Assembly: GCA_040219515.1 (NCBI GenBank)
Contig: JAVJSI010000013.1
Span: 62,001-126,000, forward strand
Source: Acidimicrobiales bacterium
Lineage (GTDB): Bacteria > Actinomycetota > Acidimicrobiia > Acidimicrobiales > Aldehydirespiratoraceae
DNA: 64,000 nt
Reading direction: 5' to 3'
The notes under the pieces are model-generated. The model was given only the letters and a program-made list of their open reading frames with translations, searched no databases and had not been told where the DNA came from. A program made the translations under genes and the position numbers. Numbering within the stretch: position 1 is the first letter of the stretch; the number at the start of each line of letters is the position of its first letter. Below are positions 28,121 through 60,812 of this stretch, one piece after another.

Positions 28121-28136
28121 CTAACGTCTGCGTCAT
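28121..28136. promoter_or_regulatory. 16-bp operator-like site A
   Basis: CTAACG-TCTG-CGTCAT, matching CTAACR-NNNG-YGTCAN. It lies between the kinase start (28094) and the dehydrogenase start (28135), and its last two bases are the first two of the dehydrogenase ATG. TAACGT inside it is also a TANNNT -10 box seven bases before that ATG, so the site could block a leaderless promoter. Confidence 0.6.
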
Positions 28137-29106
28137 GTCCCGGCCCATTGCTCTCGTCACGGCCCCGCTGCGCGGGCCGGCGTTCGACGAGCTGTGCGAG
28201 ATCGCCGATGTCGAGTTCGACCCGTGGATCGAGCATCGGCCGATCAAGCTCCACGGTCCCGACGACCTCGCGGCGCGGCTCGCCGAGTCGGGGGCGACGA
28301 TCCTGATCTGCGAGGCCGACTTCTGCAGCGGCCCGGTCTTCGACCTCCCGCTGATGTTGATCGGGTCCACTCGGGGCGACCCGAACAATGTCGATCTGGC
28401 GGGCGCGACGGCGGCGGGGATCCCCGTGCTCCACACGCCCGGCCGCAACGCCGATGCCGTCGCCGAGATGACGGTGGCCATGCTCATGGCCCTCACCCGC
28501 CACGTGGTGCCCGGGCACCACGACATGACCCACGGCACCGTCTACGGCGAGACACTTCCCTACCAGCGCTATCGGGCCTGGCAGATCGCCGGCCGCACCG
28601 CCGGACTCGTCGGGCTCGGTGCCGTGGGCCGGGCGACCAGGTGGCGCCTCGAGGGTCTCGGCATGCGCGTCATCACGAGTGACCCCTTCGCCGACGACGC
28701 AACCCACGATCTCGATGACCTGCTCGCGGAGGCCGACGTCGTGTCGATGCACGCCGCGGTCACGCCTGACACCACGGCGATGATGAACGCCGAACGGTTC
28801 GCCCGCATGAAGCCCGGCGCGGTCTACCTCAACTCGGCGCGGGCCGCTCTGCACGACACGGACGCGCTGCTCGGCGCGCTGGACTCGGGGCACCTCGGCG
28901 GTGCGGCCCTCGACCATGTCGACGGCGAGACGCTGCCGCAGGGGCACCCGTTGCTCGGCCGCTCCAATGTGGTGCTCACCCCGCACATCGGCGGAGCGAC
29001 CTTCGACGTCGAGTCCCGCCAGAGCGAGATGATCGTGGCCGACGTGAAGGCGATCCTCGCCGGCGAACGACCGACCCACTGTACGAATCCGGAGGTACTC
29101 GGATGA
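28135..29106 (+). CDS. D-2-hydroxyacid dehydrogenase, NAD-dependent
   Basis: 323 residues from ATG 28135; the longer open frame upstream is antisense to the kinase. Rossmann motif GLVGLGAVG at 157-165, catalytic Arg236 (NSAR), Glu265 (DGETLPQGHPL) and His284 (TPHIGGAT), the standard triad of D-isomer-specific dehydrogenases (phosphoglycerate or glyoxylate reductase type). It should interconvert a 2-hydroxy acid and a 2-keto acid. It overlaps the aldolase start by four bases (ATGA). No ribosome site precedes it; a -10 box seven bases upstream suggests a leaderless message. Confidence 0.9.
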   Translation: MSRPIALVTAPLRGPAFDELCEIADVEFDPWIEHRPIKLHGPDDLAARLAESGATILICEADFCSGPVFDLPLMLIGSTRGDPNNVDLAGATAAGIPVLHTPGRNADAVAEMTVAMLMALTRHVVPGHHDMTHGTVYGETLPYQRYRAWQIAGRTAGLVGLGAVGRATRWRLEGLGMRVITSDPFADDATHDLDDLLAEADVVSMHAAVTPDTTAMMNAERFARMKPGAVYLNSARAALHDTDALLGALDSGHLGGAALDHVDGETLPQGHPLLGRSNVVLTPHIGGATFDVESRQSEMIVADVKAILAGERPTHCTNPEVLG

Positions 29107-31900: not shown

Positions 31901-32629
31901 CTAGTGGTCCGTACTCCCGGTTTCGAAGAGGTGGCTGACCACGATCTCGGCGGCGCCCGCGGCGGGACCTTCCCAGCCGATGCGGCCATGCTGGAGCAGC
32001 GCGATGTGGTCGCAGAGCGCGAGGGCGTGCTGGACGTGCTGCTCGATGATCAACAGGGCGGTGCCAGAACCCCGGATGCCGGCGAGTGTCTCGTAGACCT
32101 CGTCGATGATGATGGGGGCGAGGCCGAGCGAGAGTTCGTCGGCGATCAGCAGACGGGGTTGTTCGACCAGCACTCGAGCGAGCGACAACATGCGCTGCTC
32201 ACCGCCGGACAGGGTGCCGGCCACCTGCTTGTGGCGCTCCCCGAGCCTGGGGAACAGCTCGTAGGCCCGGGCGAGTGCCTCGCCGACCCGGGCCCGACCG
32301 AGCGCTCGCCGAAACGAGAGCTCGAGATTCTCCTGCACCGTGAAGGACGCGAAGACGGAGCGACCCTCGGGCGCGTGCGCGATGCCGGCGCGGGCGAACT
32401 CGTAGGTCTTGGCGTCGGTCATGTCGACACCGTCGACGAACACCGAGCCCGACGACGCGCTCACCAACCCGGAGGCGACTCGGGCCAGGGTGGTCTTGCC
32501 GACGCCGTTGGGGCCGAGAATACCCACCGCGCTGCCCCGTTCGATTGCCAGCGAGATGCCGAAGAGTGCGCGGAACGGTCCGTAGGCCGCCTCGACGTCG
32601 CGCAGTTCGAGAATCGGCGAGGTCGTCAT
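31901..32629 (-). CDS. livF: ABC transporter ATPase, LivF type
   Basis: 242 residues. Walker A GPNGVGKTT at 39-47, HAPEGRSVF near 85-93 (the LivF-specific form of the Q-loop region), signature LSGGEQ at 140-145, Walker B LLIADE at 160-165 followed by LSLGLAP. It is half of the ATPase heterodimer with LivG. Its start overlaps the livG stop by four bases. It serves the branched-chain-amino-acid-type (HAAT) importer; members of this family also import amides, urea, aromatic acids and other organics. Confidence 0.92.
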   Translation of the reverse strand: MTTSPILELRDVEAAYGPFRALFGISLAIERGSAVGILGPNGVGKTTLARVASGLVSASSGSVFVDGVDMTDAKTYEFARAGIAHAPEGRSVFASFTVQENLELSFRRALGRARVGEALARAYELFPRLGERHKQVAGTLSGGEQRMLSLARVLVEQPRLLIADELSLGLAPIIIDEVYETLAGIRGSGTALLIIEQHVQHALALCDHIALLQHGRIGWEGPAAGAAEIVVSHLFETGSTDH

Positions 32630-33396
32630 CCCTCGACCTCCAGCGTGCCGAGGTAGGCCTCGCGGACGGCGCGGTGTTGCAGGGTCTCCGTGGTCGGACC
32701 TTCCGCGATCAGGCTGCCGAAGTCGAGGACATAGGCCCGATCGGTGAAGCCGGAAACGAGTTCGACGTCGTGCTCCACCAGGAGGATCGAGAACCCCTTC
32801 TCGGCCTGGACCGAGCGGAGCGTGGCGGCCAATGCGGCCGTCTCCTCACGATCGAGGCCCGACGACGGCTCGTCGAGGAGGAGGAGTCTGGGCTCGGTCA
32901 TGAGCGCTCGGCCGACCTCGACGAGTCGGCCCTGCCCGAGACTCATCGCTTCGATCGGTTCGTCGCCGAGTCCGTCGAGTCCGAGCAGCGCGAGCACCTG
33001 ATCGCAGCGATCGATCTCGGCCGTCGTCGGTCGACCCATGCCGAGCAGGTCCTTCCAGAACGCACCGGAGCCGTTGTGGATCCGTTCGGCGATGAGGAGG
33101 TGTTCGCGCACCGTCGAGTCGGTGAAGAGTTCGATGCGCTGGAACGTGCGGCCGATTCCGGCGCGTGCCCGCCGGTTGACCGGAAGCTTTCCGATGTCGC
33201 GGCCGAGGAAGCGGACTGTGCCCTCGTCGGGTGTCAGGATCCCCAGGAGGCAGTTGAAGAACGTGGTCTTGCCCGCGCCGTTCGGTCCGATGAGACCGAT
33301 TCGCTCACCCTCCATCACGTCGATGCTGACGCGGTCGAGGGCCCGAACGCCCGAAAACGTTTTCGAGATTCCGCGGGCTTCGAGGATGGCGGTCAT
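32626..33396 (-). CDS. livG: ABC transporter ATPase, LivG type
   Basis: 256 residues. Walker A GPNGAGKTT at 37-45, GIGRTFQRIELF at 80-91 with the Q-loop Gln, signature region MSLGQGRLVEVGRAL at 151-165 (SLGQ in place of SGGQ, which is common in LivG), Walker B LLLLDEPSSGLD at 171-182, and C-terminal VLDFGSLIAEG. It pairs with LivF. Its start overlaps the permease stop by four bases, so all three membrane/ATPase genes are translationally linked. Confidence 0.92.
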   Translation of the reverse strand: MTAILEARGISKTFSGVRALDRVSIDVMEGERIGLIGPNGAGKTTFFNCLLGILTPDEGTVRFLGRDIGKLPVNRRARAGIGRTFQRIELFTDSTVREHLLIAERIHNGSGAFWKDLLGMGRPTTAEIDRCDQVLALLGLDGLGDEPIEAMSLGQGRLVEVGRALMTEPRLLLLDEPSSGLDREETAALAATLRSVQAEKGFSILLVEHDVELVSGFTDRAYVLDFGSLIAEGPTTETLQHRAVREAYLGTLEVEG

Positions 33397-35480
33397 GAAG
33401 ATGCCTCGGCCAGGTTTGCGTTCTCCGCCGCTCGTTCTGCATCACGGGCGTGGTACCGCTCGTTGCGTTTTCGGGTGGCTCGCCGTTTACCGAATTCGAG
33501 CATTCCCTCGGGGTGGCGGGCGAACTGGATTGCGGTCAAGCCGAAGAGGACGAAACGCCACTTGGCCGAGATGGGGAAGAAGCCGGGCAACCGTTCCTCG
33601 GCACGCAGGATCCACGCGAACAGCGAACCCTCGAGAATCAGCGGTCCGAACAAGGCGAATGCAGCCCCTGCTTGGGCAGAACCTTCGACGGTCCGGGCGC
33701 TGAGCGAGACCACGAGCACCAGCCAGAAGAGGGCGGCGACGGGCGAGAAGTTCTGCGCGTAGTTCACGTTCTGCTGGTGCATCGACAGCATTGCGCCGCC
33801 GAGACCGGCGATGAAGGCCGAGACCGCGAACGCGATGATCCGCGCTCGGGCCGGGGAGATGCCGATGGACTCGGCGGCGACTTCGCTGCCTCGCAGTGCC
33901 CGCAACGTGCGGCCGATCGTTCCCTCGCGCAGCTGGATCACGGCGAGGGAGGTGATCACGAAAACGGCGATGGCGAGCGCGAGAAATGCTCGGTCGGAGG
34001 CGCCGAAGTCCCACGGCCCGAGGACCGGGCGGGGAACCTGGGCCCCGGACAGCAGCGCGGTGGAACCGCCACCGACCCACGAGAATTTCACCATCACCGC
34101 GTCGAAGAAGAATGCGAAGGCGAGCGTGGCGATCGCCAGCCAGACGCCACCGAGTCGCAGCACCGGCAGCGAGAGCAATGCGCCGACGAGCGCGGCGATC
34201 GCCGCACCGATGATCGCGGCGAGGAGCACCGACATCTCGTAGCGATCGGCCATCTGGAACACGGTGAACCCGCCGATCGCTCCGAAGGCGCCTTGACACA
34301 GCGAGATCTGGCCGGCGAGGCCCGTGATGACCGTGATCGAGAGATAGATCGTGGCCAGGATCACGGCCTGGGTGATGAGGAACACCCATCGCTGATCGGC
34401 CTGGGTGAAGGCGAGCCAGCCGACGAACGAGAGGAACACGATCGAGAACAGTCGGGTCTGGAGGGTGAGAAGCGGGTGGCGTGTCGAGGCGGCGAGCGCC
34501 GGTGGTGGCGGATCGACGCCGGCGAGTGGATCCGCGGCGTCGATCGAACGACGGATCGCCGGCCAGAAGACGAGAACCGCGAACAGGACGACGAATGGCA
34601 GCGATGGCGTGAGGTTGTCCTTGAACGGCTCGAGCCACGTGTAGTCGTCGGCCCACCGGGGCAGGAAGGTGTTGAACACCGCGATGAACCAGCCGAGGGC
34701 CATCCCGCCGATCAGGGCACGGGGCAGGCTCACGAGTCGACCGAGCGCGGCGGCAGCCATGGCGACGACCACGAGCGTGAAGAAATCGGCGCTGATGAGG
34801 GTGTTGAGCCGAGGAGCGATGAGCACCCCGGCCATTCCCGCGAACATGCTCGAGATCGCCCACGCGAGGGCCGAGACCCGATCGGCCGGTATTCCGGCCA
34901 GCTCGGTCATACGCGGACTCTCGACGACCGCGCGCATCGAGAGTCCGGCGGAGGTGAACCTGAACACCGCGCCGAGCAGGATCATGCCGACGACGGCGAT
35001 GATGATCTGGGCGAGTTCGTCCCGGCTGAAGGGATAGACACCGAACGGGTCGTAGAACACCGAAGCGCCGTCGGGAACGATGCCGGTGGGTGTACGTCCG
35101 GCGACGGGTTTGTAGCTGGCGACGAGCTCGAACAGCGCCGGTAGTGCCACGCTCAGGCCGATGGCGACCACGAGTTTCGACACGGCCGATGCGGTGCGCA
35201 GGTTTCGAAAAATCAGGCGTTCGAGGACGAGTCCGATGGCCGGGGCGAGCACGAAGACCGAGAGAATCAGCGCGGGCACGATGCCCCACTCCCAGTCCTG
35301 ACGGGCCTTGAAGAACATCGCCGCCGAGATGTAGGCCTGCGCACCGAAGGCCAGGTTGAACACCCCCGACGTCTTGTAGGTCAGGACGAAGCCCAGGCCG
35401 ATCAGCGCGTAGACGGTACCCGGCGGCGTGCCCTGGAGCAGGGCGCGCAGCAGGTCTTCACCGAACGAAGCAAGGATCAC
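33393..35480 (-). CDS. Fused LivH-LivM ABC permease
   Basis: 695 residues, a fusion of the two permeases that are usually separate. The N-terminal half (about 1-310) has the LivH pattern (LLQGTPPGTVYALIGLGF at 13-30, FNLAFGAQAYI). The C-terminal half (about 345-660) has the LivM pattern (ITGLAGQISLCQGAFGAIGGF, RALRGSEVAAESIGI). About 15-17 hydrophobic segments are visible, and the last 30 residues are charged and cytoplasmic. The fusion fixes a 1:1 ratio of the two halves of the channel. It sits 31 bases after the binding-protein gene. Confidence 0.92.
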   Translation of the reverse strand: MILASFGEDLLRALLQGTPPGTVYALIGLGFVLTYKTSGVFNLAFGAQAYISAAMFFKARQDWEWGIVPALILSVFVLAPAIGLVLERLIFRNLRTASAVSKLVVAIGLSVALPALFELVASYKPVAGRTPTGIVPDGASVFYDPFGVYPFSRDELAQIIIAVVGMILLGAVFRFTSAGLSMRAVVESPRMTELAGIPADRVSALAWAISSMFAGMAGVLIAPRLNTLISADFFTLVVVAMAAAALGRLVSLPRALIGGMALGWFIAVFNTFLPRWADDYTWLEPFKDNLTPSLPFVVLFAVLVFWPAIRRSIDAADPLAGVDPPPPALAASTRHPLLTLQTRLFSIVFLSFVGWLAFTQADQRWVFLITQAVILATIYLSITVITGLAGQISLCQGAFGAIGGFTVFQMADRYEMSVLLAAIIGAAIAALVGALLSLPVLRLGGVWLAIATLAFAFFFDAVMVKFSWVGGGSTALLSGAQVPRPVLGPWDFGASDRAFLALAIAVFVITSLAVIQLREGTIGRTLRALRGSEVAAESIGISPARARIIAFAVSAFIAGLGGAMLSMHQQNVNYAQNFSPVAALFWLVLVVSLSARTVEGSAQAGAAFALFGPLILEGSLFAWILRAEERLPGFFPISAKWRFVLFGLTAIQFARHPEGMLEFGKRRATRKRNERYHARDAERAAENANLAEASS

Positions 35481-35511
35481 AGCGCGCGTCTCGTGAGTCG
35501 GGTCGTGTCAG

Positions 35512-36960
35512 TCAGTCGAACGTCGTTTGCACGGGTTCCTGCCACGATCGGTCTTCCTGGGGCCAGCACAGCCACGGCTGGTCGGTGATCGTCTGGAAGG
35601 CCCCGCCCTCCATCTGCACGATGCTGAAGCACTCCTGCGCAGCGCCGTGCGTCACCCGGTCATCCGGGGTCGGCGTCTCGTGCTGGCGGGACCAGTCGAT
35701 CGGTGCGAGCAGCCCGCCATAGGTGTAGGCGGTGAACTCCGTGTTGATCGCCGACACAATCGATTCACGGTCGAACTCGGGTCCGGCGGCGATCAGCCCG
35801 TCGACGAACAGCGTTGCGTTCATCCAACCGATCATCGTCTGCTCGGCGGTCGGGCCACCCTGCTGGTCGACCCATTCGTTGTAGAGCTGGATCGGCGGAA
35901 GGTCGGTGAACTCGAACGGCACGAACTGCGGCGACACGAAATCGCCGTCGAAGAGATCGCCCGCCTCGGCGACGAACTCCGCGTTGTAGGTGTTCGGGTG
36001 TTGCAACGTAATCTGGTCACGCACGTTCTGCCGCTCGAGCTCTTGGGCGATGGTCTTCATTCCGTTGAGATCGAGACACGACGCTACGAAGTCGACGCCG
36101 AGCTCGATCCACTCCGAGACCTGGGGGGCGATGCCGTTGGGGAGTCCGAACTCGAGACCGTCGTAGGTCTTGGCCAAAGAGATGCCGAGATCGTCGCTGT
36201 ACTGCTCGATCGCGTTGGCGTTGTTGAGCGCGCACGTCTGGGACTCGGGGGAGATCCCGTAGCCGAGCGACACCGCGGTGGACGCACCGGCCAACTGCAT
36301 CTGGTAAGGCACCGCACGGCCGGTGCAGTCGCCGCAGAGCACACCGAAATGCGGGTACAAGGTCTCCCGGCCGTTGTTGACCGGTGACTGGATCCCCCAG
36401 TTGAACAACGGAACTCCGGCATCGGCGAGATCGCCGTAGCCCGTCGGGTTGAGGGTGGCGCCGAAGGTCACGAGCGTGTCGTCGTTGGCGATGATCTCGA
36501 CGGCTTTCGCCTGGTTCTGTGCGAGCTCGTCGTCGAGCACGTCGGCGACGACGAGCTGGCGGCCGAACACTCCGCCGAGCGAGTTCTGGTAGTCGAAGTA
36601 AGCCTGGATACCGGTGAGATAGCAGTCGAGGATGCAGGTACCGAGAGGGTTGTTCTCGCGCAATCCGAGCACGGCGACGGCGATCTCGTCATCGCTCACG
36701 CCGGGCACGCCCTCGAGGGCGACGAAGGTGTCGCGGTCGGCGGCATCCTCAGGAGCACTGTCGTCGGGAGCACTGTCGTCGGGCGCGCTGTCGTCGGGGG
36801 CACTGTCGTCGGGCGGGGTCGTGTCGTCGGACTCGGCTGCCGTCGTCGTGGTCGAGTCATCGGTCGACGCCGAGTCGTCGTCGCCGCTGTTGCCGCAGGC
36901 GGCCGCCAGGAGCGAGAGCGACAGGAGTGCCGCGCTGATTCCGTGCAGTCGTCGATGCAT
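35512..36960 (-). CDS. Substrate-binding lipoprotein, Liv/HAAT type
   Basis: 482 residues from ATG 36960 with GGGGAAAG immediately upstream. Signal segment about 8-21, lipobox LAAAC with Cys22, then an acidic linker with four DDSAP repeats. The mature protein is a periplasmic-binding-protein type I (Peripla_BP_6) domain with the two-lobe pattern (IAVAVLGLRENNPLG, LVTFGATLNPTGYGDL, WMNATLFVDGLIAAG). Such proteins bind amino acids, aromatic acids or other organic acids. It leads the importer operon; operator-like site B lies 43 bases upstream of its start. Confidence 0.9.
   Translation of the reverse strand: MHRRLHGISAALLSLSLLAAACGNSGDDDSASTDDSTTTTAAESDDTTPPDDSAPDDSAPDDSAPDDSAPEDAADRDTFVALEGVPGVSDDEIAVAVLGLRENNPLGTCILDCYLTGIQAYFDYQNSLGGVFGRQLVVADVLDDELAQNQAKAVEIIANDDTLVTFGATLNPTGYGDLADAGVPLFNWGIQSPVNNGRETLYPHFGVLCGDCTGRAVPYQMQLAGASTAVSLGYGISPESQTCALNNANAIEQYSDDLGISLAKTYDGLEFGLPNGIAPQVSEWIELGVDFVASCLDLNGMKTIAQELERQNVRDQITLQHPNTYNAEFVAEAGDLFDGDFVSPQFVPFEFTDLPPIQLYNEWVDQQGGPTAEQTMIGWMNATLFVDGLIAAGPEFDRESIVSAINTEFTAYTYGGLLAPIDWSRQHETPTPDDRVTHGAAQECFSIVQMEGGAFQTITDQPWLCWPQEDRSWQEPVQTTFD
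36752..36811. repeat. Four 15-bp units coding a DDSAP linker
   Basis: GGNGCNCTGTCGTCG is repeated four times in tandem inside the binding-protein gene, encoding DDSAP repeats of the spacer between the lipid anchor and the folded domain. Copy number may vary between strains. Confidence 0.75.
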
Positions 36961-37002
36961 CTTTCCCCCAAGGAAGTGATCGAGCCGGATGCGGTGACGC
37001 AC

Positions 37003-37018
37003 CTGACGCTGGTGTTAG
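37003..37018. promoter_or_regulatory. 16-bp operator-like site B
   Basis: CTGACG-CTGG-TGTTAG; its reverse complement fits CTAACR-NNNG-YGTCAN. It is 43 bases upstream of the Liv binding-protein ATG (36960). An extra half-site ACGTTAG follows at about one helical turn (37025-37031). Confidence 0.6.
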
Positions 37019-37089
37019 ATCCGGACGTTAGCGCGGTGACGGACTTCACTCCAGACGGCACGCGAGGGGGGCTGATCCGACGGGCGGGA

Positions 37090-38080: not shown

Positions 38081-38125
38081 CTGACAACATACGCACAACA
38101 TGTCAGCTTGTCGAACACTTGTCGA
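38081..38125. promoter_or_regulatory. Repeat-rich TetR/LLM divergent operator region
   Basis: In the 87-base gap, CTGACA (38081-38086) and TGTCAG (38101-38106) form an inverted repeat. ACAACAT occurs at 38084 and 38095, and CTTGTCGA at 38107 and 38118, both with an 11-base period. Such phased repeats suggest cooperative binding of a dimeric regulator, most simply autoregulation by the adjacent TetR protein. Confidence 0.5.
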
Positions 38126-38142
38126 TCCGCCATCATGGGCGC

Positions 38143-38694
38143 ATGGCCCCAGCCGACGGCGACAAGCAGACGAAGATCCTCGACGCCGCGCTCGAGAAGT
38201 TCTCGGCCTACGGCTTCTCCCGGACCTCGATGGTCGACATCTCCGAAGCGGCGGGGATGTCGCGCCCCGCCCTCTACCAGCACTACGCGAACAAGGAGGA
38301 GATCTTCCGGGCCATGCTCGGGCGCATCCTCGACGACGCCGCGGATCGGGCGATCGCCTGCCTGGAGGACGAGGTCGGTCTCGAATCGCAGCTCGACGGC
38401 TTCCTGCAGCGCTGGTTCGGTGACATGGCCGAGACCCTCCGGGCAACGCAGCACGGCAGCGACCTCATCGAGGCCAAGGCGGGTCACGCGAAGCCGGTCG
38501 TCGAGGTGGTGAACCACCGGATTCGCGCCGCCCTCATCGCCAGGCTCCGCGACGTCGACGGCGATCCCGGGCTGCTGGCCGATCTCCTGCTGCTCGGGCC
38601 CCACGGCCTGAAGTACGACGAACCGTCGATGGCGAAGCTGCGGCGGCGGCTGGGGGCTCTGGCGACGACTGTCGCGAGGTCGACCGAGTCCTAG
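38143..38694 (+). CDS. TetR-family transcriptional regulator
   Basis: 183 residues from ATG 38143. N-terminal TetR DNA-binding domain: ILDAALEKFSAYGFSRTSMV, then the helix-turn-helix DISEAAGMSRPALYQHYANK at about 32-51. The C-terminal ligand domain is unremarkable. No ribosome site precedes the ATG. It is divergent from the LLM gene, whose operator region contains phased repeats, so it probably represses that gene and itself. It is one of two TetR proteins here that could read the six-fold 16-bp site. It overlaps the convergent tandem-TetR gene by four bases. Confidence 0.88.
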   Translation: MAPADGDKQTKILDAALEKFSAYGFSRTSMVDISEAAGMSRPALYQHYANKEEIFRAMLGRILDDAADRAIACLEDEVGLESQLDGFLQRWFGDMAETLRATQHGSDLIEAKAGHAKPVVEVVNHRIRAALIARLRDVDGDPGLLADLLLLGPHGLKYDEPSMAKLRRRLGALATTVARSTES

Positions 38695-39944
38695 TCGGCC
38701 CCGAATATCCCGCGACGGATGACGAGCGCAGTGGCGGTGATCGCGTCGTCGACCGACAACCCGAGGGCGCGAAACACCACCGACGGCAGATTCTCGAGCA
38801 ACGCGAAGCAGATCACGACGTCGGCCTCGGTGTCGCCGAATTCGCGGGTGTCGAGGGCGCGGCGCAGGGCCTGCGCCGTTTCGTGACGAGATCGCGCGGC
38901 ACACTCGAGCCCGGCTGTCTGTGCTTCGGGCAGGCAGGCGATGATGCCGCCCCGGCGGGCGAACAGCTCGTAGTACGCCGTGGCCCAGCGGACCTCGTCA
39001 CCGGCGGCGACCGGCCACGTATCGAGAAGGGCGACCACCTCGTCGGTCGTGGCATCGACGTGTTCGGTGAACACGTCGTCCTTGTCGGTGAAGTAGCGGT
39101 AGAAGGTCCCGTGCGACACATCGGCCTCGGTGGCGATGTCGTCGACTCGCACGGCTTCGTAGCCGAGCGTGCCGAACGCGGTTGCGGCCGCATCGACCAA
39201 TCGAGCACGGGTGGCCTGGCCGCGCGTCGGACGGTCGGCGCCGTCGTCGATCACCGTCGGGCGCGGTGCCGGATGGCGGCGAGACCGGCCCGGAACCCGC
39301 GGGCCGACGTTCACGTCATCGATTGCGCCATAGATCATCCGGTGCGTGGCATCGGCTGCGGCGTCGGTGAGTCGCGCCTTGCTGGGTCCGCCGAGGCGGG
39401 TGCGGAACACCGCCGATCCGTACGCGATCGAGTTGACCGCAGTCGTGCACAACTCGATCGGCTCCGAGCGGGTCGGCACATCCTCGATCACCGCCAAGAG
39501 GCGGCGTCGGAACGCCTCGCTGAGCGTCCGTGAGCCCGTCACCATGAGGTCGTCGGTGCGGACGGACGCGGCGAAGTTGTCGGCGACGGCGCGATACCGA
39601 TCGTGGACGTCGGCCAGCCCATCGAGCCAACGCCGCAGCTCGTCGCGTCCGGCTCGGTCGGCAGTGATCGCGGTGATGTGGTTGAGCAGATCGGCGAGGT
39701 CGGCGCCGAAGCGGGTGGCGAGTCGGCGGTGCAGGTCCTCCTTGCCCGAGAAGTACTGGTAGAAGGTCGGTCGCGAGCAGCCGGCGATGTCGGTGATCGC
39801 CTCGACACTGGTGCGCGCGTAGCCGTGTTCGGCGAAGGCCTGGCCGGCCGCCGCGAGGATGCGCTGTTGGGTTGCTCGGCCGGTGTCGCCGACCGTCGGG
39901 TTCGAGCCGAAGGGCGCTCGCCGCGACGTGCTGATGTCCTCCAT
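38691..39944 (-). CDS. Tandem TetR fusion regulator
   Basis: 417 residues, about twice a normal TetR protein. The first DNA-binding domain is at about 25-75 (QQRILAAAGQAFAEHGYART, then ITDIAGCSRPTFYQYFSGKE), followed by a ligand-type domain to about 210, a basic Pro/Arg-rich linker (215-240) and a complete second TetR unit (RARLVDAAATAFGTLGYEAV, then IATEADVSHGTFYRYFTDKD near 270-289, and a second ligand domain). One chain could bind as a pseudodimer or recognise two half-sites. It starts at ATG 39944 with a TANNNT box eight bases upstream and no ribosome site. Confidence 0.9.
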   Translation of the reverse strand: MEDISTSRRAPFGSNPTVGDTGRATQQRILAAAGQAFAEHGYARTSVEAITDIAGCSRPTFYQYFSGKEDLHRRLATRFGADLADLLNHITAITADRAGRDELRRWLDGLADVHDRYRAVADNFAASVRTDDLMVTGSRTLSEAFRRRLLAVIEDVPTRSEPIELCTTAVNSIAYGSAVFRTRLGGPSKARLTDAAADATHRMIYGAIDDVNVGPRVPGRSRRHPAPRPTVIDDGADRPTRGQATRARLVDAAATAFGTLGYEAVRVDDIATEADVSHGTFYRYFTDKDDVFTEHVDATTDEVVALLDTWPVAAGDEVRWATAYYELFARRGGIIACLPEAQTAGLECAARSRHETAQALRRALDTREFGDTEADVVICFALLENLPSVVFRALGLSVDDAITATALVIRRGIFGAD

Positions 39945-39979: not shown

Positions 39980-41200
39980 TCAGAGGATCGCGCCCGACTC
40001 CTTCATCGCGGTGATCTCGTCCCATCCGACACCCAGCTCGGCGAGGATGAGTTCGGTGTGCTCGCCGAGCTCGGGTGCGCGTTCCACGACGGTCGGAGTC
40101 TCGTCGAACTGGGCCGGACTCGCGACCAGCTGGACCTCGTCGCCCGACCCGTGGATCATCGTGGGCAGGTAGCCGTTGGCGACCACCTGTGGGTCGGCGT
40201 AGAGCTCGTCGAGCGTCTGGAACGGCGTCCACACGCCCTCGAACGTCTCGAGCCTCGCCTTCCACTCGTCGAGAGTTCGCTCGGCGAACGCGTCGTCGAG
40301 GATGTCGATGCAGGCCGGACCGTTCTCGGCGCGCGCCGACGAGTGGGCGAAGCGATCGTCGTCGACCAGGATCGGCCGGTCGAGCCGGGCGGCGAAGTCG
40401 TCCCAGTGCTTGTCGCTCTGGAGCAGGATCAGGCTGATGAAGCGATCGTCCTTGGTCTTGTAGACGCCGACGCCGGGGTTGGGTGAGAGGCGGCGGTCGC
40501 CCCGGGGGAGCGAGCTCATGCCGAACAGCTTCGACGCGACGACGAGCGGCGAGATCTGCCACATCGCGGTGGCCAGCAACGACACGTCGACGACGCTTCC
40601 CTCGCCGGTGCGTTCCCGCTTGACGAGGGCCGCCGCGATGGCGCCGGCCACACTGAGTCCGCCCATCACGTCGCCGAAGGCCGGCGACGACTGGGCCGCC
40701 GGCCAGCCGTTCTCGTCGGGTGGGAACACGGCGCCGAGGCCGCCCCGGGCCCAGAACGAGGCGCCGTCGTAGCCGCCTTTCTCGGCGTGGGGGCCCTGCG
40801 AACCCTGGCCGGATCCGCGGGCGATCACGATGCTCGGGTTGCGGGCACGGATGTCGTCGGTGTCGACGCGTAGCTTGCGCCGGATCGGTGGGAGGTAGTT
40901 GGTGAGAAACACGTCGGCCGTTTCGACGAGCCGCATGAACGCCTCGTGGCCGTCGTCGTGGCGCAGGTCGATGGCCATGCTGCGCTTCGAGCGATTGGGT
41001 TGCTCGACCATGAAGTTGACCCCGCCGGCGCCCCCGGGCAGCAGCCCGGAGGTGATCAGGCCCCGCTGCGGGTCGCCGCCGTCGGGCGGTTCGACCTTGA
41101 TGACGTCGGCGCCCCAGTCGGCCAGGACCGAACCGGCCGACGGGATGAACATCCAGCTCGCCAGTTCGACGACGCGGACCCCGTCCAGCGGTCCGCTCAT
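39980..41200 (-). CDS. CaiB/BaiF family III CoA-transferase
   Basis: 406 residues. N-terminal LDGVRVVELASWMFIPSAGS and LADWGADVIKVEPP are the family signature. The aspartate expected to form the aspartyl-CoA-type anhydride is in EKGGYDGASFWARGG near 145-150, and VDVSLLATAM follows. It moves CoA between carboxylic acids. Start ATG 41200 overlaps the aldehyde-dehydrogenase stop by four bases. It ends the operon amidohydrolase - ferredoxin - P450 - aldehyde dehydrogenase - CoA-transferase, giving the order hydroxylation, aldehyde oxidation, CoA activation. Confidence 0.92.
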   Translation of the reverse strand: MSGPLDGVRVVELASWMFIPSAGSVLADWGADVIKVEPPDGGDPQRGLITSGLLPGGAGGVNFMVEQPNRSKRSMAIDLRHDDGHEAFMRLVETADVFLTNYLPPIRRKLRVDTDDIRARNPSIVIARGSGQGSQGPHAEKGGYDGASFWARGGLGAVFPPDENGWPAAQSSPAFGDVMGGLSVAGAIAAALVKRERTGEGSVVDVSLLATAMWQISPLVVASKLFGMSSLPRGDRRLSPNPGVGVYKTKDDRFISLILLQSDKHWDDFAARLDRPILVDDDRFAHSSARAENGPACIDILDDAFAERTLDEWKARLETFEGVWTPFQTLDELYADPQVVANGYLPTMIHGSGDEVQLVASPAQFDETPTVVERAPELGEHTELILAELGVGWDEITAMKESGAIL

Positions 41201-42654
41201 GCGGGCCAGCCGACTGTCTTCGTCTCGGTGAAGATCTCCAGCCCTTCGATGCCGCACTGGCGACCGATGCCGGAGCCCTTGTAGCCGCCGAACGGCGCGT
41301 CGGCGCCGTACCAGACACCGCCGTTGATGCCGAGCGTGCCGACCCGGATCCGGGCGGCCATCGCCTTGGCCCGCTCGAGGTCGCCCGAGAAGATGTTGCC
41401 CGAGAGGCCGAAGGTGGAGTCGTTGGCGATGCGGACCGCGTCCTCGTCGTCGTCGTAGGGGATCATGCAGATGACGGGGCCGAAGATCTCCTCCTGGGCG
41501 ATGGTCATCGAGTTGTCGACATCGGCGAACAGTGTGGGCTCGACGTAGAAGCCCTTCTCGAGGTGAGCCGGGATGCCACCACCGGTCACGACACGAGCGC
41601 CCTCGGCCTTCCCCTTCTCGATGTAGTCCAGCACCCGCTCCTGCTGCTTCTTCGAGACCTGGGGACCCTGGAGATTGTTGGCGTCGGTCGGGTCGCCGTA
41701 GTTCCAGCCCTCGAACGAGGCCTTGGCCACGGCCACCGCCTCGTCGTATCGGTTGCGGGGCACGAGCAGTCGAGTCGGGATGGCACAGCCCTGGCCACCG
41801 TGCATGCACGACGTGACGGCCGAGGCGAGGGTCGCTTCCAGGTCGACGTCGTCGAGATAGATGTTGGCCGACTTGCCGCCGAGTTCGAGGAACACCGGCT
41901 TGAGGGTGGCCGAGGCCGCCTCCATGATCCGACGGCCCGTGGCGCTGGACCCGGTGAACGCGACCAGGTCGACGTCGGGCGACGTGGTGAGGACCTCGCC
42001 CGTCAGGTGGTCCTGGCTCGACACGATGTTGACCACACCGGCCGGAATGTCGGTCTTCTCGGCGATGAGGCGGCCCAGTCGCAGCGCGGTGGCCGAGGTG
42101 TCGGGCGCGGGCTTGAGGACGCAGGTGTTGCCCATGGCCAGGACCGGGCCCAGCTTGTTGAGGGTGATCTCGATGGGGAAATTCCAGGGCACGATCACGC
42201 CGACCACACCGATGGCTTCCTTCCAGACCTCGCGGGCGGTCTCGTAGCCGACGCCCATCGCGTCCTTCGGGCCGATCGACCGCTTCCACTCGAACTCGTC
42301 GATCATCTCCGCCGGCCACGCCAGGGCCTCGCGCAGCGGTGCGTCGAGCTGGGGACCGTAGGTGAGCAGCAGCGGGCAGCCGACCTCGGCGATGAGATCC
42401 TGACGGAACTCCTCCTGCTCGCTCTCGATGGCGGCCTGGAGTTGGCCGAGACACTTCTTGCGGAACGCGTGATCGGTGGACCAGTCGGTCGTGTCGAACG
42501 CTTCACGGGCCGCAGCCACGGCGGCCTCCATGTCGGCTCGGCTGCCGTCGGCGATCTGGCCGATCACCTCCTCGGTCGCCGGGTTGATGTTGTCGAACGT
42601 CGCGCCGCCCTCCGCATCCACGAGCCGGCCACCGATGAGCAGTTTCGAGTCCAT
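41197..42654 (-). CDS. NAD(P)-dependent aldehyde dehydrogenase
   Basis: 485 residues. VPWNFPIEITLNKLGPVLAM near 155-175, general-base Glu in LELGGKSANI near 252-261, catalytic Cys in GGQGCAIPTR near 288, and the C-terminal PFGGYKGSGIGRQ. It oxidises an aldehyde to the acid. It follows the P450 gene with no gap (GGGGAG ribosome site within the end of the P450 gene), so the natural substrate is probably an aldehyde made after P450 hydroxylation. Confidence 0.93.
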   Translation of the reverse strand: MDSKLLIGGRLVDAEGGATFDNINPATEEVIGQIADGSRADMEAAVAAAREAFDTTDWSTDHAFRKKCLGQLQAAIESEQEEFRQDLIAEVGCPLLLTYGPQLDAPLREALAWPAEMIDEFEWKRSIGPKDAMGVGYETAREVWKEAIGVVGVIVPWNFPIEITLNKLGPVLAMGNTCVLKPAPDTSATALRLGRLIAEKTDIPAGVVNIVSSQDHLTGEVLTTSPDVDLVAFTGSSATGRRIMEAASATLKPVFLELGGKSANIYLDDVDLEATLASAVTSCMHGGQGCAIPTRLLVPRNRYDEAVAVAKASFEGWNYGDPTDANNLQGPQVSKKQQERVLDYIEKGKAEGARVVTGGGIPAHLEKGFYVEPTLFADVDNSMTIAQEEIFGPVICMIPYDDDEDAVRIANDSTFGLSGNIFSGDLERAKAMAARIRVGTLGINGGVWYGADAPFGGYKGSGIGRQCGIEGLEIFTETKTVGWPA

Positions 42655-43830
42655 TCAGTCTCCCCAGACGAGTCGGAGGTTGTCGACGCTGCGCAACCCC
42701 ATCGTGTATTCGGGCACCAGGCCCGGTTCGAGCCTGTACGACGGCACCCGTTTGTGCCATTCCTCGAGCGCGACCCGCAGTTCCATGCGGGCGAGATGCG
42801 AGCCGAGGCAGCGATGGACACCGCCGCCGAACGCGATGTGCTTGTTGACCTCGCGGTCGAAATCGACCTTGTCGGCATCGGCCCAGAAGCGCTCGTCGGT
42901 GTTGGCCGATCCGAGGTTGACCGAGACGGCGTCGCCGGCCTTGATCGGACAGCCCGAGAGCTCGGTGTCGCGTGTGGCCACCCGTACGACGCCGGCCACC
43001 GGCGACTCCCAGCGCAGCAGTTCCTCGACCGCCGCGGGAACGTCGGCCGGGCGATCGACGAGGCGCTGCTGATCGTCGGGGTGCTGGGCGAGGTGGGTGA
43101 TCATGCAGTCGAGCGAGGCGGTGACGGTGTCGAGTCCCGCGAGGAAGAACAGGTAGCCGATGTCGAGCACGTCCTCCTCGGTGAGGCGATGGCCATCGAC
43201 CTCGGCATCGAGGAACTGCGAGATGAAGTCGTCCTGTGGAGCCGCCTTCTTCTCGGCGATGGCCGCTTCGAGCACGGCATAGATCTTCTGCCCGGTCGCG
43301 TCGCGGTATGCCTTGGCGTCCTTCGACCGCACCGGGGGACGGATGATGCCGTCCTTCAGTTCGATGAACTCGGGGGTGCGGTCGATGGGCAGGCCGAACA
43401 TCGTGAGGAACACCTGGCTGGGCAGCGGCTCGGCGATGCGGTCGTGGAAGTTGCACGCGCCGTCGTCGATGACCCCGTCGATGAGATCGTTGACGAGCGC
43501 CCGGGTGCCGGCTTCCAGCTCGGCCACGCGGCGGGGCGCGAACAGCGGGTCGAGCAGCTTGCGGTACTTCGAGTGGTCGGGCGGATCGATCTCCAGCGGG
43601 ATGAGAGGCCGGACCTGGCCGATCTCGGCCGCACCGTCGCTGGAGAAAATGTCGGGGTTCTGGAGCACGGTCATCACGTCGTCGTGCAACGCGACACTCG
43701 TGCCCGTGAGCATCTCGTGTTCGACCGCCATCACCGGCATGTGGTCACGCAGGAACTTGTACATCTCCTGGGGTGGGCCGGCGAGGTCGAGTCCCGTCGC
43801 GGTTTCGGGTGGTGTGGTCTCTTCGGTCAT
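42655..43830 (-). CDS. Cytochrome P450 with adjacent ferredoxin
   Basis: 391 residues from ATG 43830; an in-frame start 17 codons upstream would overlap the ferredoxin. I-helix AGLDTV at 231-236, ExxR E270-R273 (ELLR) and canonical heme loop FGGGVHRCLG with Cys341. Its own ferredoxin is encoded just upstream (stop at 43835), so this is a class I system lacking only a reductase. It lies between an amidohydrolase and an aldehyde dehydrogenase in a five-gene operon controlled from the site C region. Confidence 0.93.
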   Translation of the reverse strand: MTEETTPPETATGLDLAGPPQEMYKFLRDHMPVMAVEHEMLTGTSVALHDDVMTVLQNPDIFSSDGAAEIGQVRPLIPLEIDPPDHSKYRKLLDPLFAPRRVAELEAGTRALVNDLIDGVIDDGACNFHDRIAEPLPSQVFLTMFGLPIDRTPEFIELKDGIIRPPVRSKDAKAYRDATGQKIYAVLEAAIAEKKAAPQDDFISQFLDAEVDGHRLTEEDVLDIGYLFFLAGLDTVTASLDCMITHLAQHPDDQQRLVDRPADVPAAVEELLRWESPVAGVVRVATRDTELSGCPIKAGDAVSVNLGSANTDERFWADADKVDFDREVNKHIAFGGGVHRCLGSHLARMELRVALEEWHKRVPSYRLEPGLVPEYTMGLRSVDNLRLVWGD

Positions 43831-43834
43831 GGGG

Positions 43835-44044
43835 TCAGCCTTCGGTGAGGGTGATGGCGTCTTCGGGACAGTTGGCGGCACCCTTGCGGGCCGCGTCGTG
43901 GAGATCGGGCAGGATCTCCGAGTTCACGGCCAGGGTCGAGACGACAATGCCGTAGCCGTCGTCGTCGGACTCGAAGACCGCCGGCGCGAGGACATAGCAG
44001 CGCCCGTGCCCCTGGCAGCGAACGCGATCGAGGTGGACCTGCAT
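43835..44044 (-). CDS. Small [3Fe-4S]-type ferredoxin
   Basis: 69 residues. Cluster residues: C10-x-x-H13-x-x-C16 (RCQGHGRCYVLAP) and C61 (AANCPEDAI), so the central second Cys of the usual motif is His. This CxxHxxC variant is known from mycobacterial P450 ferredoxins and alters the redox potential. It shuttles single electrons to the P450 encoded four bases downstream. ATG 44044 overlaps the amidohydrolase stop by one base. Confidence 0.9.
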   Translation of the reverse strand: MQVHLDRVRCQGHGRCYVLAPAVFESDDDGYGIVVSTLAVNSEILPDLHDAARKGAANCPEDAITLTEG

Positions 44045-45222
44045 CAGACGTGCAGCAGTTCCTTGAGGTTGCCGCCCATGATCTTGGCCACGTCGGCGTC
44101 GCTGAGGCTGCTCGGTAGATCGTCGACGAAGTCGACGGGGTTCGCCATGCCCTCCGGGTGCGGATAGTCGCTGCCGAAGAGCAGACGGTCGGGCGACATG
44201 ATCTCGATCAGGTCCTCGAGGCCGTCCTCCCAGAACGGATTGACGTAGACGTTGCGGGTGAACGACGTGAGCGGATGCTCGGCGAACTCCTGGGGCATCT
44301 TCTTGTAGATGCCGTTGAGCCCTTCGACGAGCGGCTTGACCCAGGTGCCTCCGTTCTCGATGGTGCCGAACCGCATGTCGGGGAACCGCGTGAAGGCACC
44401 GTGGCAGATCATCGCGTTCATCATGTCGGTGATCGGCCGGTTGCCCATGATGAGGCTGCGGAACGGGTTGGGCTTGAAGGGGAGCATCTCGCCCTTGCCC
44501 TCCCAGATGCTCGAGAGGTCGGCATAGCCGGAGTCCGACGAGTGCATCCCGACGAACACGCCGGCTTCCTGCACGCGCGCCCAGAAGGGATCGAACTCCT
44601 CGAGGCCGGGCGAGCGTGGTCCCCGCAGTCCCCACGCCGGCGCCGGACGGATGAGGATGCAACGGGCGCCGTTGTCGAGGGCCCACTCGAGTTCCTCGAT
44701 CGCCTTCTCGACGATCGGCAGGGCGATGACCGGCGTGGCGAAGATGCGGTCCTCGTGGTTGAAGCTCCACTCGTCGAGCAGCCACTGGTTCAACGAGTGC
44801 ACGGCGGCGTGGCACAGGTCGGGGTCGTCGCGCATGCGCTCTTCGAGCAGGCTCGCGAGCGTGGGGAACATCAGGGTGCCGTCGATACCGAGCTCGTCGA
44901 GGTGGGGGAGTCGGGCGGCGGCGTTGCGGGCCCACTCCGGGCACGGCATCGGATCGCCGAAGATCTCCCGCAGACTCTTGCCGTCGGGGTTGCCGTTGCG
45001 GAAGTAGTCCTCCTGCGCACCCGGACGGGCGACCACGCCGAAGGTGGGGTTGGGGATGTAGTCCGAGATCTTGTCGTTCACCGCGATCTTGGTGCGGCCG
45101 TTGACCTGGACGTACTTGATCGCCCCCTTGTATTTGGCCGGCAGATGGCGCGTGAAGGCGTCCTCCGTCTCGTAGAGGTGGTTGTCGGCGTCGAACACCG
45201 GGAAGTCGATCGTGCGGGCCAT
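44044..45222 (-). CDS. Amidohydrolase-2 family metal-dependent hydrolase (paralogue 1)
   Basis: 392 residues. The TIM-barrel metal motif DADNH at 10-14 (PVFDADNHLYE) replaces the usual DxHxH, a His is likely supplied by VGMHSSDSG, and the late Asp is in LLFGSDYPHPEG near 360. This ACMSD/LigW-like family contains decarboxylases and C-C or C-O hydrolases. GAGGGAT precedes ATG 45222. It leads the ferredoxin/P450/aldehyde-dehydrogenase/CoA-transferase operon, 38 bases from operator-like site C. Two relatives are at 46857 and 48234. Confidence 0.9.
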   Translation of the reverse strand: MARTIDFPVFDADNHLYETEDAFTRHLPAKYKGAIKYVQVNGRTKIAVNDKISDYIPNPTFGVVARPGAQEDYFRNGNPDGKSLREIFGDPMPCPEWARNAAARLPHLDELGIDGTLMFPTLASLLEERMRDDPDLCHAAVHSLNQWLLDEWSFNHEDRIFATPVIALPIVEKAIEELEWALDNGARCILIRPAPAWGLRGPRSPGLEEFDPFWARVQEAGVFVGMHSSDSGYADLSSIWEGKGEMLPFKPNPFRSLIMGNRPITDMMNAMICHGAFTRFPDMRFGTIENGGTWVKPLVEGLNGIYKKMPQEFAEHPLTSFTRNVYVNPFWEDGLEDLIEIMSPDRLLFGSDYPHPEGMANPVDFVDDLPSSLSDADVAKIMGGNLKELLHV

Positions 45223-45259: not shown

Positions 45260-45275
45260 CTAACAGTGGTGTCAG
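45260..45275. promoter_or_regulatory. 16-bp operator-like site C
   Basis: CTAACA-GTGG-TGTCAG, the most symmetric copy (CTAACA against CTGACA on the other strand). It lies between the divergent amidohydrolase (45222) and SDR (45304) starts. Confidence 0.65.
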
Positions 45276-48180: not shown

Positions 48181-48196
48181 CTAACATCAGCGTCAC
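48181..48196. promoter_or_regulatory. 16-bp operator-like site D
   Basis: CTAACA-TCAG-CGTCAC, midway between the divergent amidohydrolase starts (about 38 bases from each). TAACAT within it could also be a -10 box for the plus-strand gene. Confidence 0.65.
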
Positions 48197-55790: not shown

Positions 55791-55806
55791 GTGACGCCAC
55801 TGTTAG
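55791..55806. promoter_or_regulatory. 16-bp operator-like site E
   Basis: GTGACG-CCAC-TGTTAG; its reverse complement fits CTAACR-NNNG-YGTCAN. It lies between the SDR start (55758) and the acyl-CoA dehydrogenase start (55823). Confidence 0.65.
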
Positions 55807-59133: not shown

Positions 59134-60798
59134 TCAGGGGAGTCGTTCGACACCGGTCGTGCCGGCGGTGACGCGCCATGACGACGCAGTTCGTATCGGC
59201 GAGGTCGGCGCCTGGGTGGTGTCCACCCAACGGAAGTGGGTCGTCAGATCGTCGGCGGTGATGTCGACGACGAGATAGCCGCGGTGCTCGGTCTCGTAGA
59301 GATGAATGTGCTCGTTGCGCCGTGACCCCTCGACGAACTCGGGCAGCAACAGTTCGAGGCTGGTGATCGACGGTGCGACGAACTCTGTGCCGACCATCGG
59401 CGAGTCGGGGTCGTGATACGACACGTGGAGATCGGCCACCGCCGACGTGTGGATGTCGCCGCCGAGGACGACGAGGTTCTCGACGCCGGCATCTCGAGCT
59501 GCACCGAGCAGCCGTTCCCGAGGAGCGACGTAGCCGTCCCAGGCATCCATCGAGAATCCCTTTGTCGGGTCGTCGGGCGCCCGGTTCACCTCGGCCATGA
59601 TCGTCTGCTGGGCGACGATGGTCCACCTCGCGTCGTTGTCGAACTGCCCTGCGAGCCACTCCTCCTGTTCCACGCCGAGCATCGTGCGCGACTCGTCGAA
59701 CGCTCCGTCGAGCTGGGGTCCACCGCCGAATGGTCGGGGCAGGTTGCCGTTGCCCTCGCCCTGGACGATCGGCGAGCGGTACTGCCGATCGTCGACCAGT
59801 GCGAGGTGCACGAGATCGCCGAACGCGAAGTCGCGGTAGACGGTGAGTTCGCCGTCGACGGGAGGCCCGGTGCGCACGGGCATGAACTCCCACCAGGCTT
59901 GATAGGCGGCGATCCGGCGGTCGCGGAAACTCGCCGCCGCGGTCGGGTCCAGCAGGCTGCCGATGCCCCCGGGCTCCCAGCCCGCGTAGTTGTCCTCGAC
60001 CTCGTGGTCGTCCCACATGACGATCCACGGCACGTTCCCGTGGCATTCGGCGAGTTCGGGCTCGAGCCGCGCGACTGCGTAGTAGGACCGGTACTCGTCG
60101 AGCGAGTAGGGCACGGGCAGCCCGTGGTCGCGGAAGGTGCCGCTCTCGAGTTCGTAGATGTAGTCGCCGACGAAGATCACCGCGTCGGCTCCTTCCTGCG
60201 TGAGGTGCGTGAGCGGCGTGAAGCGACCCGACTTCCAGGCCATGCACGAGGCGACGGCCAGCCGGACCGAGTCCACCGACGCGCCCGGTGCGGGCGCCGT
60301 TCGCGTCATTCCAGCGACCGTGTGGTCACCGACGTGGAAGCGGTACCAGTAGTCGGTCGACGGTTCGAGCCCGGTGACATCGACGTGCACGGAATGGCCA
60401 TGAGCCGTGTTCGTCACGAACTCGCCATCGGCCACGGACACGTCACCGTCCGGGCCGATCTCCCAGCGGACGGGCACCTGTTCGAGGTCGATGCCGGCGC
60501 CGGGCGCCATCGGATCGACGGCGAGTCGGGTCCAGATCACCACGGCGTCGGGCAGAGGATCTCCCGAGGCCACGCCGAATGGGAACGGATCGTTCGCGAA
60601 CTCGGGCACCGGCAACGTCGTGCTGGTCGTGGACGTCGTGGTGCTCGGCTGCGTCACTGTCGTCGACTCGGGGGGAGCCGGGGCCGTGGAGCCAGTCCCG
60701 GTTGCCGGTTCGTCGTTGCCGGAACACGCTGCGGCGACGAGACCTGCCGACGCGGCCAGGAAGCCACGTCGCGACAGGGGGTCGTTGGAAGGAGGCAT
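59134..60798 (-). CDS. phoD: Alkaline phosphatase D (PhoD)-like, Tat lipoprotein
   Basis: 554 residues from ATG 60798. Twin-arginine signal SRRGFLAASAGL at 9-20 runs into a lipobox VAAAC with Cys25, so it is probably exported folded and lipid-anchored. A Thr/Ser/Pro-rich linker follows (about 30-62), then a PhoD N-domain and the metallophosphatase domain with VGDYIYEL, MWDDHEVEDNY and GGDIHTSA as metal-binding blocks. PhoD enzymes release phosphate from mono- and diesters outside the cell. Operator-like site F overlaps its start codon, and TAACAT seven bases before the ATG may be its -10 box. Confidence 0.9.
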   Translation of the reverse strand: MPPSNDPLSRRGFLAASAGLVAAACSGNDEPATGTGSTAPAPPESTTVTQPSTTTSTTSTTLPVPEFANDPFPFGVASGDPLPDAVVIWTRLAVDPMAPGAGIDLEQVPVRWEIGPDGDVSVADGEFVTNTAHGHSVHVDVTGLEPSTDYWYRFHVGDHTVAGMTRTAPAPGASVDSVRLAVASCMAWKSGRFTPLTHLTQEGADAVIFVGDYIYELESGTFRDHGLPVPYSLDEYRSYYAVARLEPELAECHGNVPWIVMWDDHEVEDNYAGWEPGGIGSLLDPTAAASFRDRRIAAYQAWWEFMPVRTGPPVDGELTVYRDFAFGDLVHLALVDDRQYRSPIVQGEGNGNLPRPFGGGPQLDGAFDESRTMLGVEQEEWLAGQFDNDARWTIVAQQTIMAEVNRAPDDPTKGFSMDAWDGYVAPRERLLGAARDAGVENLVVLGGDIHTSAVADLHVSYHDPDSPMVGTEFVAPSITSLELLLPEFVEGSRRNEHIHLYETEHRGYLVVDITADDLTTHFRWVDTTQAPTSPIRTASSWRVTAGTTGVERLP

Positions 60799-60812
60799 GA
60801 CACGGATGTTAG
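60797..60812. promoter_or_regulatory. 16-bp operator-like site F
   Basis: ATGACA-CGGA-TGTTAG; its reverse complement fits CTAACR-NNNG-YGTCAN. It overlaps the phosphatase ATG on the minus strand and lies ten bases before the SDR GTG (60822) on the plus strand. Confidence 0.6.

Follow-up and report, generated by a model that had tools for sequence, protein, structure and literature searches.

A double TetR-family regulator of Acidimicrobiales and its candidate asymmetric operator

The stretch of DNA analysed here (the window, 64,000 nucleotides from an Acidimicrobiales bacterium) contains a gene on its minus strand, at 38691-39944, for a protein of 417 residues in which two TetR units follow each other. 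This raises the question of whether the two halves of such a chain pair with each other and, as was proposed in an earlier note on this DNA, use two different reading heads to recognise operators with unequal half-sites, and which genes would then be under its control.

The fused reading frame and its predicted fold

The gene is a single open reading frame, running from ATG to stop with no internal stop codon. Its translation was matched in two stretches by the Pfam family TetR_N (PF00440; 101.3 bits against a Pfam cut-off of 24, E 2.3e-29), which places it among the TetR/AcrR proteins, the best stretch being residues 29-72. Many TetR models of NCBIfam likewise matched in two stretches, the best of them at residues 19-104 or 241-305 and all below their cut-offs. 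The recognition helix of the N-terminal domain (residues 29-72; 39729-39860, minus strand) reads GCSRPTFYQYF and that of the C-terminal domain (residues ~245-293; 39066-39212, minus strand) reads DVSHGTFYRYF, with a linker at residues ~209-241 (39222-39320, minus strand). One polypeptide therefore holds two complete TetR units, the architecture of a double TFR, and the coordinates, length and domain positions given in the earlier note were borne out by translation, Pfam and NCBIfam.

The possibility that a frameshift or an assembly error had joined two genes, which would have undone the proposal, was ruled out by the presence of full-length, single-frame orthologues (53-56% identity) in four of six congeners. 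No match was found in the remaining two, G028 and G030; contigs C49 and C133 of G028 end inside the genes that flank the fused-TetR segment, so that its copy would fall in an assembly gap, and the G030 assembly is 66% complete. Across the order, 17 of 298 genomes had a match with an E value of 1e-35 or lower, two of these being partial. Among the best 80 of 448 relatives, the nearest included Acidimicrobiales and Acidimicrobiia metagenome-assembled genomes, followed by Mycobacterium, Frankiaceae and Pseudonocardia, and the relatives analysed here come mostly from metagenome-assembled genomes.

The two halves are similar mainly in the helix-turn-helix (42% over 50 residues by BLASTP). By profile, the nearest PDB entry to the N-terminal half was EthR, while the best alignments of the C-terminal half were to other TetRs and to the first half of Mce3R. 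As the halves align mainly in this region and differ in their nearest matches, a fusion of two diverged TetRs appears the better reading of the sequence than a recent duplication.

A single-chain AlphaFold2 model built from 35 sequences had a mean pLDDT of 89.4 and a pTM of 0.87, and the only segments of at least three residues with a pLDDT below 50 were residues 1-7 and, within the linker, 231-237. As this pTM spans two domains, it suggests that the placement of the halves relative to each other is predicted with confidence. The best Foldseek match of the model was chain A of Mce3R from Mycobacterium tuberculosis (Rv1963c, PDB 9b7y; E 1.4e-7), and VIA-align superposed model residues 18-415 on Mce3R residues 8-398 (Z 24.1, 343 residues, rmsd 4.7), the entries after Mce3R reaching Z 15.0 or less and mostly covering one half of the model. 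The intramolecular pairing of the halves, for which structure prediction had been suggested as a check, is thus what the model predicts, with the halves packed together and both superposable on 9b7y_A.

Mce3R also has two TetR halves in each chain, in an arrangement that the prediction resembles. PMC11667970 (2024) presents it as the first double TFR with a structure, a single-chain asymmetric TFR on a non-palindromic operator, and describes a lipid-metabolism-linked regulon that includes its own gene, features shared with the proposal made here. The two proteins, however, have only 14% identity in the structural alignment, and the Mce3R operator region is described in the same paper as two asymmetric sites of 25 bp, 53 bp apart, whereas the putative sites reported below are single, compact (15-16 bp) and spread over many promoters. 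Orthology to Mce3R was considered and rejected, as similarity over the full length, N-terminal half to first half and C-terminal half to second half, was found neither by phmmer, which gave a weak local match to the C-terminal half only (E 2.4e-5), nor by profile, in which the single passing stretch paired the C-terminal half with Mce3R residues 6-117. No mce or yrbE families were found among 25 neighbouring window proteins typed by Pfam. The N-terminal half was closest to EthR (M. tuberculosis) in structure as well as by profile (Z 14.3-15.0, rmsd 2.2-2.6), but the EthR chains among the matches listed have 216-256 residues and one TetR unit, unlike the fused protein with both units in one chain. 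Double TFRs are already known, and Mce3R is a precedent for a covalent pseudodimer, not an orthologue. Among the matches listed in literature searches on fused, tandem or double TetRs, asymmetric TetR operators and TetRs of Acidimicrobiia, only the Mce3R work was relevant.

An asymmetric motif and the genes beside it

The operator quoted in the earlier note, CTAACR-N4-YGTCA, proved to be a real feature of this DNA. Six exact copies were present in the window against a mean of 0.04 after shuffling, none of 100 shuffles reached six, and the motif ranked first among 720 composition-matched patterns, the runner-up having two copies. Genome-wide (4.02 Mb), seven copies were found, all within 72 kb of the window's own contig (C13, 50.8-122.8 kb), compared with four for the reversed control. 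A chance motif was rejected on the basis of the shuffles, this distribution and the composition-matched patterns. The shorter TAACR-N4-YGTYA found the same six window sites, and allowing one mismatch added none. All seven genome copies have a counterpart in congener G029, as judged by matching flanks by eye, and where the comparison was made the adjoining genes are conserved in G029 as well.

In the genus of the window, the fused gene is the last of a same-strand run, the upstream part of which (39980-45222, minus strand) encodes, by Pfam, an amidohydrolase, a 4Fe-4S ferredoxin, a P450, an aldehyde dehydrogenase (nearest model Rv0768, below cut-off) and a CoA-transferase III. The putative operator CTAACAGTGGTGTCA (45260-45274, plus strand) stands at the head of this run, between divergent genes. 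A second, CTAACGTCTGCGTCA (28121-28135, plus strand), shares its final A with the start codon (ATG) of the gene at 28135-29106 for a D-2-hydroxyacid dehydrogenase, and a third, CTAACACCAGCGTCA (37004-37018, minus strand), precedes genes for a periplasmic binding protein and a branched-chain-type ABC transporter (31901-37002). The candidate site CTAACATCAGCGTCA (48181-48195, plus strand) lies between two divergent amidohydrolase genes, beyond which an acyl-CoA ligase gene follows, while CTAACAGTGGCGTCA (55792-55806, minus strand) separates a short-chain dehydrogenase gene on the minus strand from a pair of acyl-CoA dehydrogenase genes on the plus strand. The last putative operator of the window, CTAACATCCGTGTCA (60798-60812, minus strand), overlaps at its end the ATG of a PhoD-like phosphatase gene on the minus strand, divergent from a short-chain dehydrogenase gene on the plus strand. 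The seventh genome copy lies outside the window and extends into the ATG of a gene of the nitroreductase family.

A second CTAACGTC half-site was noticed at 37019-37031, just upstream of the candidate operator at 37004 and 13 bp from it, start to start. It is kept with small changes in several congeners and could represent either an additional half-site or a promoter element.

Taken by their Pfam families, the genes beside the motif copies suggest a catabolic pathway through CoA thioesters. The cholesterol-catabolism regulons of KstR and KstR2, with P450, acyl-CoA dehydrogenases and CoA ligase, are similar in kind. Repressors of that type bind palindromic motifs according to PMC4482099, unlike the asymmetric candidate site here, and KstR2 acts as a homodimer (PMC11667970), whereas the fused protein holds both units in one chain; the NCBIfam KstR model covered its C-terminal helix-turn-helix alone, far below cut-off.

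The motif runs into the ATG at three sites (28121-28137 and 60796-60812 of the window, and 10839-10855 of locus L062), which suggests leaderless transcripts with a -10 region covered by the repressor. The same layout, seen at three of the seven genome sites, would also be expected if the motif were a promoter element, the -10 box of a particular sigma factor, and not an operator. TAACRT, placed seven nucleotides ahead of the start, looks like the -10 of a leaderless actinobacterial transcript. Against such an element, the distance from site to predicted start ranges from 0 to well over 100 nucleotides, the right half GTCA is as strictly kept as the left (a comparison in which the search pattern fixes both), and nearly all genomes with an excess of the motif carry the fused regulator, as set out below. 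A promoter element is accordingly considered very unlikely.

Linkage of motif and fused gene

Among 51 genomes drawn from the family, all seven of the genus carried 5-10 motif copies, and the other 44 carried 0-7 (seven in G047, five in G023) against 0-11 in their reversed controls. In G042, from another genus, a fused TetR of 24-28% identity lies 3 kb from one copy, which directly precedes a CoA-transferase homologue; a second copy lies 22-23 kb away and a third, with a less typical spacer, far away on the same contig.

Fused-TetR neighbourhoods elsewhere in the order (29 stretches, 508 kb) contained 41 CTAACR copies, or 42 of the 14-letter core, against one copy for each of two 14-letter controls. 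Over the 298 order genomes, TCTAACR-N4-YGTCA averaged 4.7 copies where the fused gene was matched (17 genomes) and 0.28 in the remaining 281 (80 copies in total in each set; Mann-Whitney p 1.7e-17, not corrected for relatedness), and at least four copies were found in 11 of the 17 but in 2 of the 281. These two, G111 and G292, are congeners of the gene-bearing G053 and G230, while three further genomes of the G230 genus (G180, G206 and G310) had neither a fused-gene match nor a copy of the motif. Sites without a detected gene were seen in G028 (the assembly gap), G030 (66% complete), G111 (77%) and G292 (92%). Conversely, few sites accompanied the gene match in G242 (none), G277 and G261 (one each) and G187 (two); the matches of G242 and G261 are partial and lie at contig ends, and the G277 gene belongs to the sister clade described below. 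A set of 78 loci fetched by homology (1.33 Mb) gave 46 copies, and three controls gave 1, 0 and 0. Of the 46, 35 fell in L122-L140, all 19 of which had at least one, and none in L121, a 4.7-kb contig. Nine of the 78 loci are DNA also present among the 29 stretches, so the two sets of counts are not independent. Congener G025 appears to correspond to 'Acidimicrobiales bacterium DHS20C19', its DNA recurring in L121 and L065.

In a quick tree of 84 fused TetRs, two sides separated, one whose C-terminal recognition helix carries SHG (35 His, 1 Arg, 1 Lys) and an Arg side (47 rows). In 18 of 34 distinct His-type relatives, a CTAAC site was located between -300 and +20 of the matched start of the fused gene itself, compared with at most 1 of 34 for any of 719 composition-matched patterns in the same span and with 1 of 43 Arg-type relatives for the CTAAC site. 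No exact site was found in this span in the other 16 His-type relatives, of which five belong to the genus of the window, where the gene ends a run, and two of the remaining eleven (L078 and L090) have a TGAC-type site instead. An unbiased dyad count placed CTAA-N7-GTCA and TAAC-N6-GTCA jointly first (18 of 31 promoters), and as GC-type dyads reached 16 of 31, also above the shuffle maxima of 9-11, the null in this count is weak.

A single TetR gene, TetR1 (38119-38694, plus strand), lies tail to tail with the fused gene, and it was also possible that a TetR1 homodimer binds CTAACR-N4-YGTCA while the fused protein has other targets. TetR1 sits within the cluster and is conserved in congeners at 62-65% identity. 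Among 92 stretches, however, it occurred as a separate gene in genus loci only (five matches with alignments of more than 100 residues, two on the same contig), and a separate homologue was not found in the 40 kb examined of G042, whereas the motif tracks the fused gene across the order. A requirement for unequal half-sites would also be unexpected of a homodimer. The TetR1 promoter moreover carries a different, symmetric element, CTGACA-N14-TGTCAG (38081-38106), which recurs in G027 and, with its first base changed to G, in G029 (congeners read by eye), a palindrome thus present in three genomes of the genus that is probably TetR1's own operator. TetR1 is best read as an ordinary, self-controlled TetR and was rejected as the reader of the motif, a role that we regard as highly improbable for it.

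A further alternative concerns pairing between chains, either N-terminal with N-terminal and C-terminal with C-terminal halves on symmetric sites, or N- with C-terminal halves swapped between two chains. Mce3R itself further dimerises through helix 15 (PMC11667970), the model obtained here is of a single chain, and the loci do contain symmetric TGACR-N4-YGTCA sites (26 copies in the 29 stretches and 71 in the 78 loci, which are overlapping sets). The symmetric counterpart of the motif, TAACR-N4-YGTTA, by contrast, was absent from every locus examined, including both of these sets, and the confident packing of the halves in a model that superposes on single-chain Mce3R argues against pairing between chains. 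This alternative is considered unlikely, and even a swapped dimer would leave the main point of the pseudodimer proposal standing, since its site would again be asymmetric.

It is therefore considered highly probable, from sequence comparison and the predicted model, that the fused protein is a double TetR-family repressor acting as an intrachain pseudodimer that reads TCTAACR-N4-YGTCA and controls a local catabolic regulon. The earlier proposal of a covalent pseudodimer with two heads on an asymmetric site gains support from the resemblance of the model to Mce3R, the order-wide co-occurrence, the sites in the regulator's own promoters and the lack of TAACR-N4-YGTTA. The tool results support that the two units are fused, that the fusion is conserved, that an intramolecular fold is predicted, and that the motif exists and is linked to the gene. 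In the mechanism proposed, the EthR-like N-terminal half and the C-terminal half would pair intramolecularly, like those of Mce3R, and form an asymmetric pseudodimer whose two different helix-turn-helices would read the unequal halves of the site. Binding would be direct, in the start region of catabolic promoters, which are often divergent, or immediately upstream of it and in some cases into the ATG, and would presumably repress rather than activate the genes for the P450, aldehyde and short-chain dehydrogenases, CoA-transferase, acyl-CoA ligase and dehydrogenases, amidohydrolases and ABC uptake. The regulator would also repress its own operon, if the gene run is indeed transcribed as one, and might be released by a pathway intermediate, perhaps an acyl-CoA thioester.

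A sister clade and a possible origin of the asymmetry

The Arg side of the tree differs from the His side in its recognition helices, which have Arg in both halves (SRAT.. and SRGT or ARGT..) where the His side has SHGT.. in the C-terminal one. CTGACR-N4-YGTC was present in 8 of 25 Arg-type promoters, three of the eight sites reading TCTGACR-N4-YGTCAG, against at most 3 of 25 for other composition-matched patterns, and in 3 of 31 His-type promoters; the 25 exclude a mycobacterial group (14 after removal of near-duplicates) and include L136, which the tree places in the His clade. The dyads of CTGACR-N4-YGTC only equalled the shuffle maximum in the unbiased dyad count, and the statistics for the sister-clade sites are modest. 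The gene for the sister-clade fused TetR of G042 is accompanied by a CTGAC-type site, although CTAAC sites also lie nearby.

Neither TGACR-N4-YGTCA nor CTAACR-N4-YGTCA was found as an exact match in the own promoters of the 14 mycobacterial members. In nine mycobacterial loci (L162, L164, L173, L175, L178, L179, L180, L186 and L187), two TGACR-N4-YGTCA palindromes were observed ~6.5-8 kb downstream of the fused gene, at 17.4-18.9 kb of the loci, with a spacing of 66 bp in eight of the nine and 56 bp in L179.

Genome G150 holds both paralogues, His- and Arg-type, and the two types of site are largely kept apart. Within 20 kb around the first gene there are five CTAAC copies and one GTTGAC palindrome but no TCTGAC, and the 20 kb around the second contain two TCTGAC sites, one more TGACR-N4-YGTCA and no CTAAC, a single TCTAAC copy lying ~20 kb off on the second gene's contig.

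The Arg/His split at the C-terminal helix tracks the site type over what is essentially one deep branch, with L078 and L090 (His, TGAC site) and L136 (Arg, TAAC site) as exceptions. Supposing that Arg reads the G of TGAC and that His goes with the A, the C-terminal head would read the CTAAC half, which is put forward as a hypothesis since its basis is essentially one evolutionary event; the conserved N-terminal arm (RRAPFG..) could equally place the N-terminal half on the extended TCTAAC side. As the fused TetRs of the sister clade have near-palindromic sites, fusion alone does not appear to force asymmetry. We tentatively suggest, as a possibility somewhat short of even, that the family broke operator symmetry by changing one reading head, and that a single half-site change insulates two regulons, given that both paralogues coexist, each with its own site type. 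If true, this would be a natural recoding of half an operator, beyond the reach of a homodimer.

The fused regulators described here represent a separate group of double TFRs with a short, exact, asymmetric putative operator that is repeated across a regulon and traceable over many genera. With its near-palindromic sites, the sister group allows the way in which asymmetric recognition evolved to be tested one residue at a time. The fused regulators also provide a handle on a catabolic regulon in Acidimicrobiia, and suggest that a cell can operate a non-palindromic switch through the fusion of two repressor halves.
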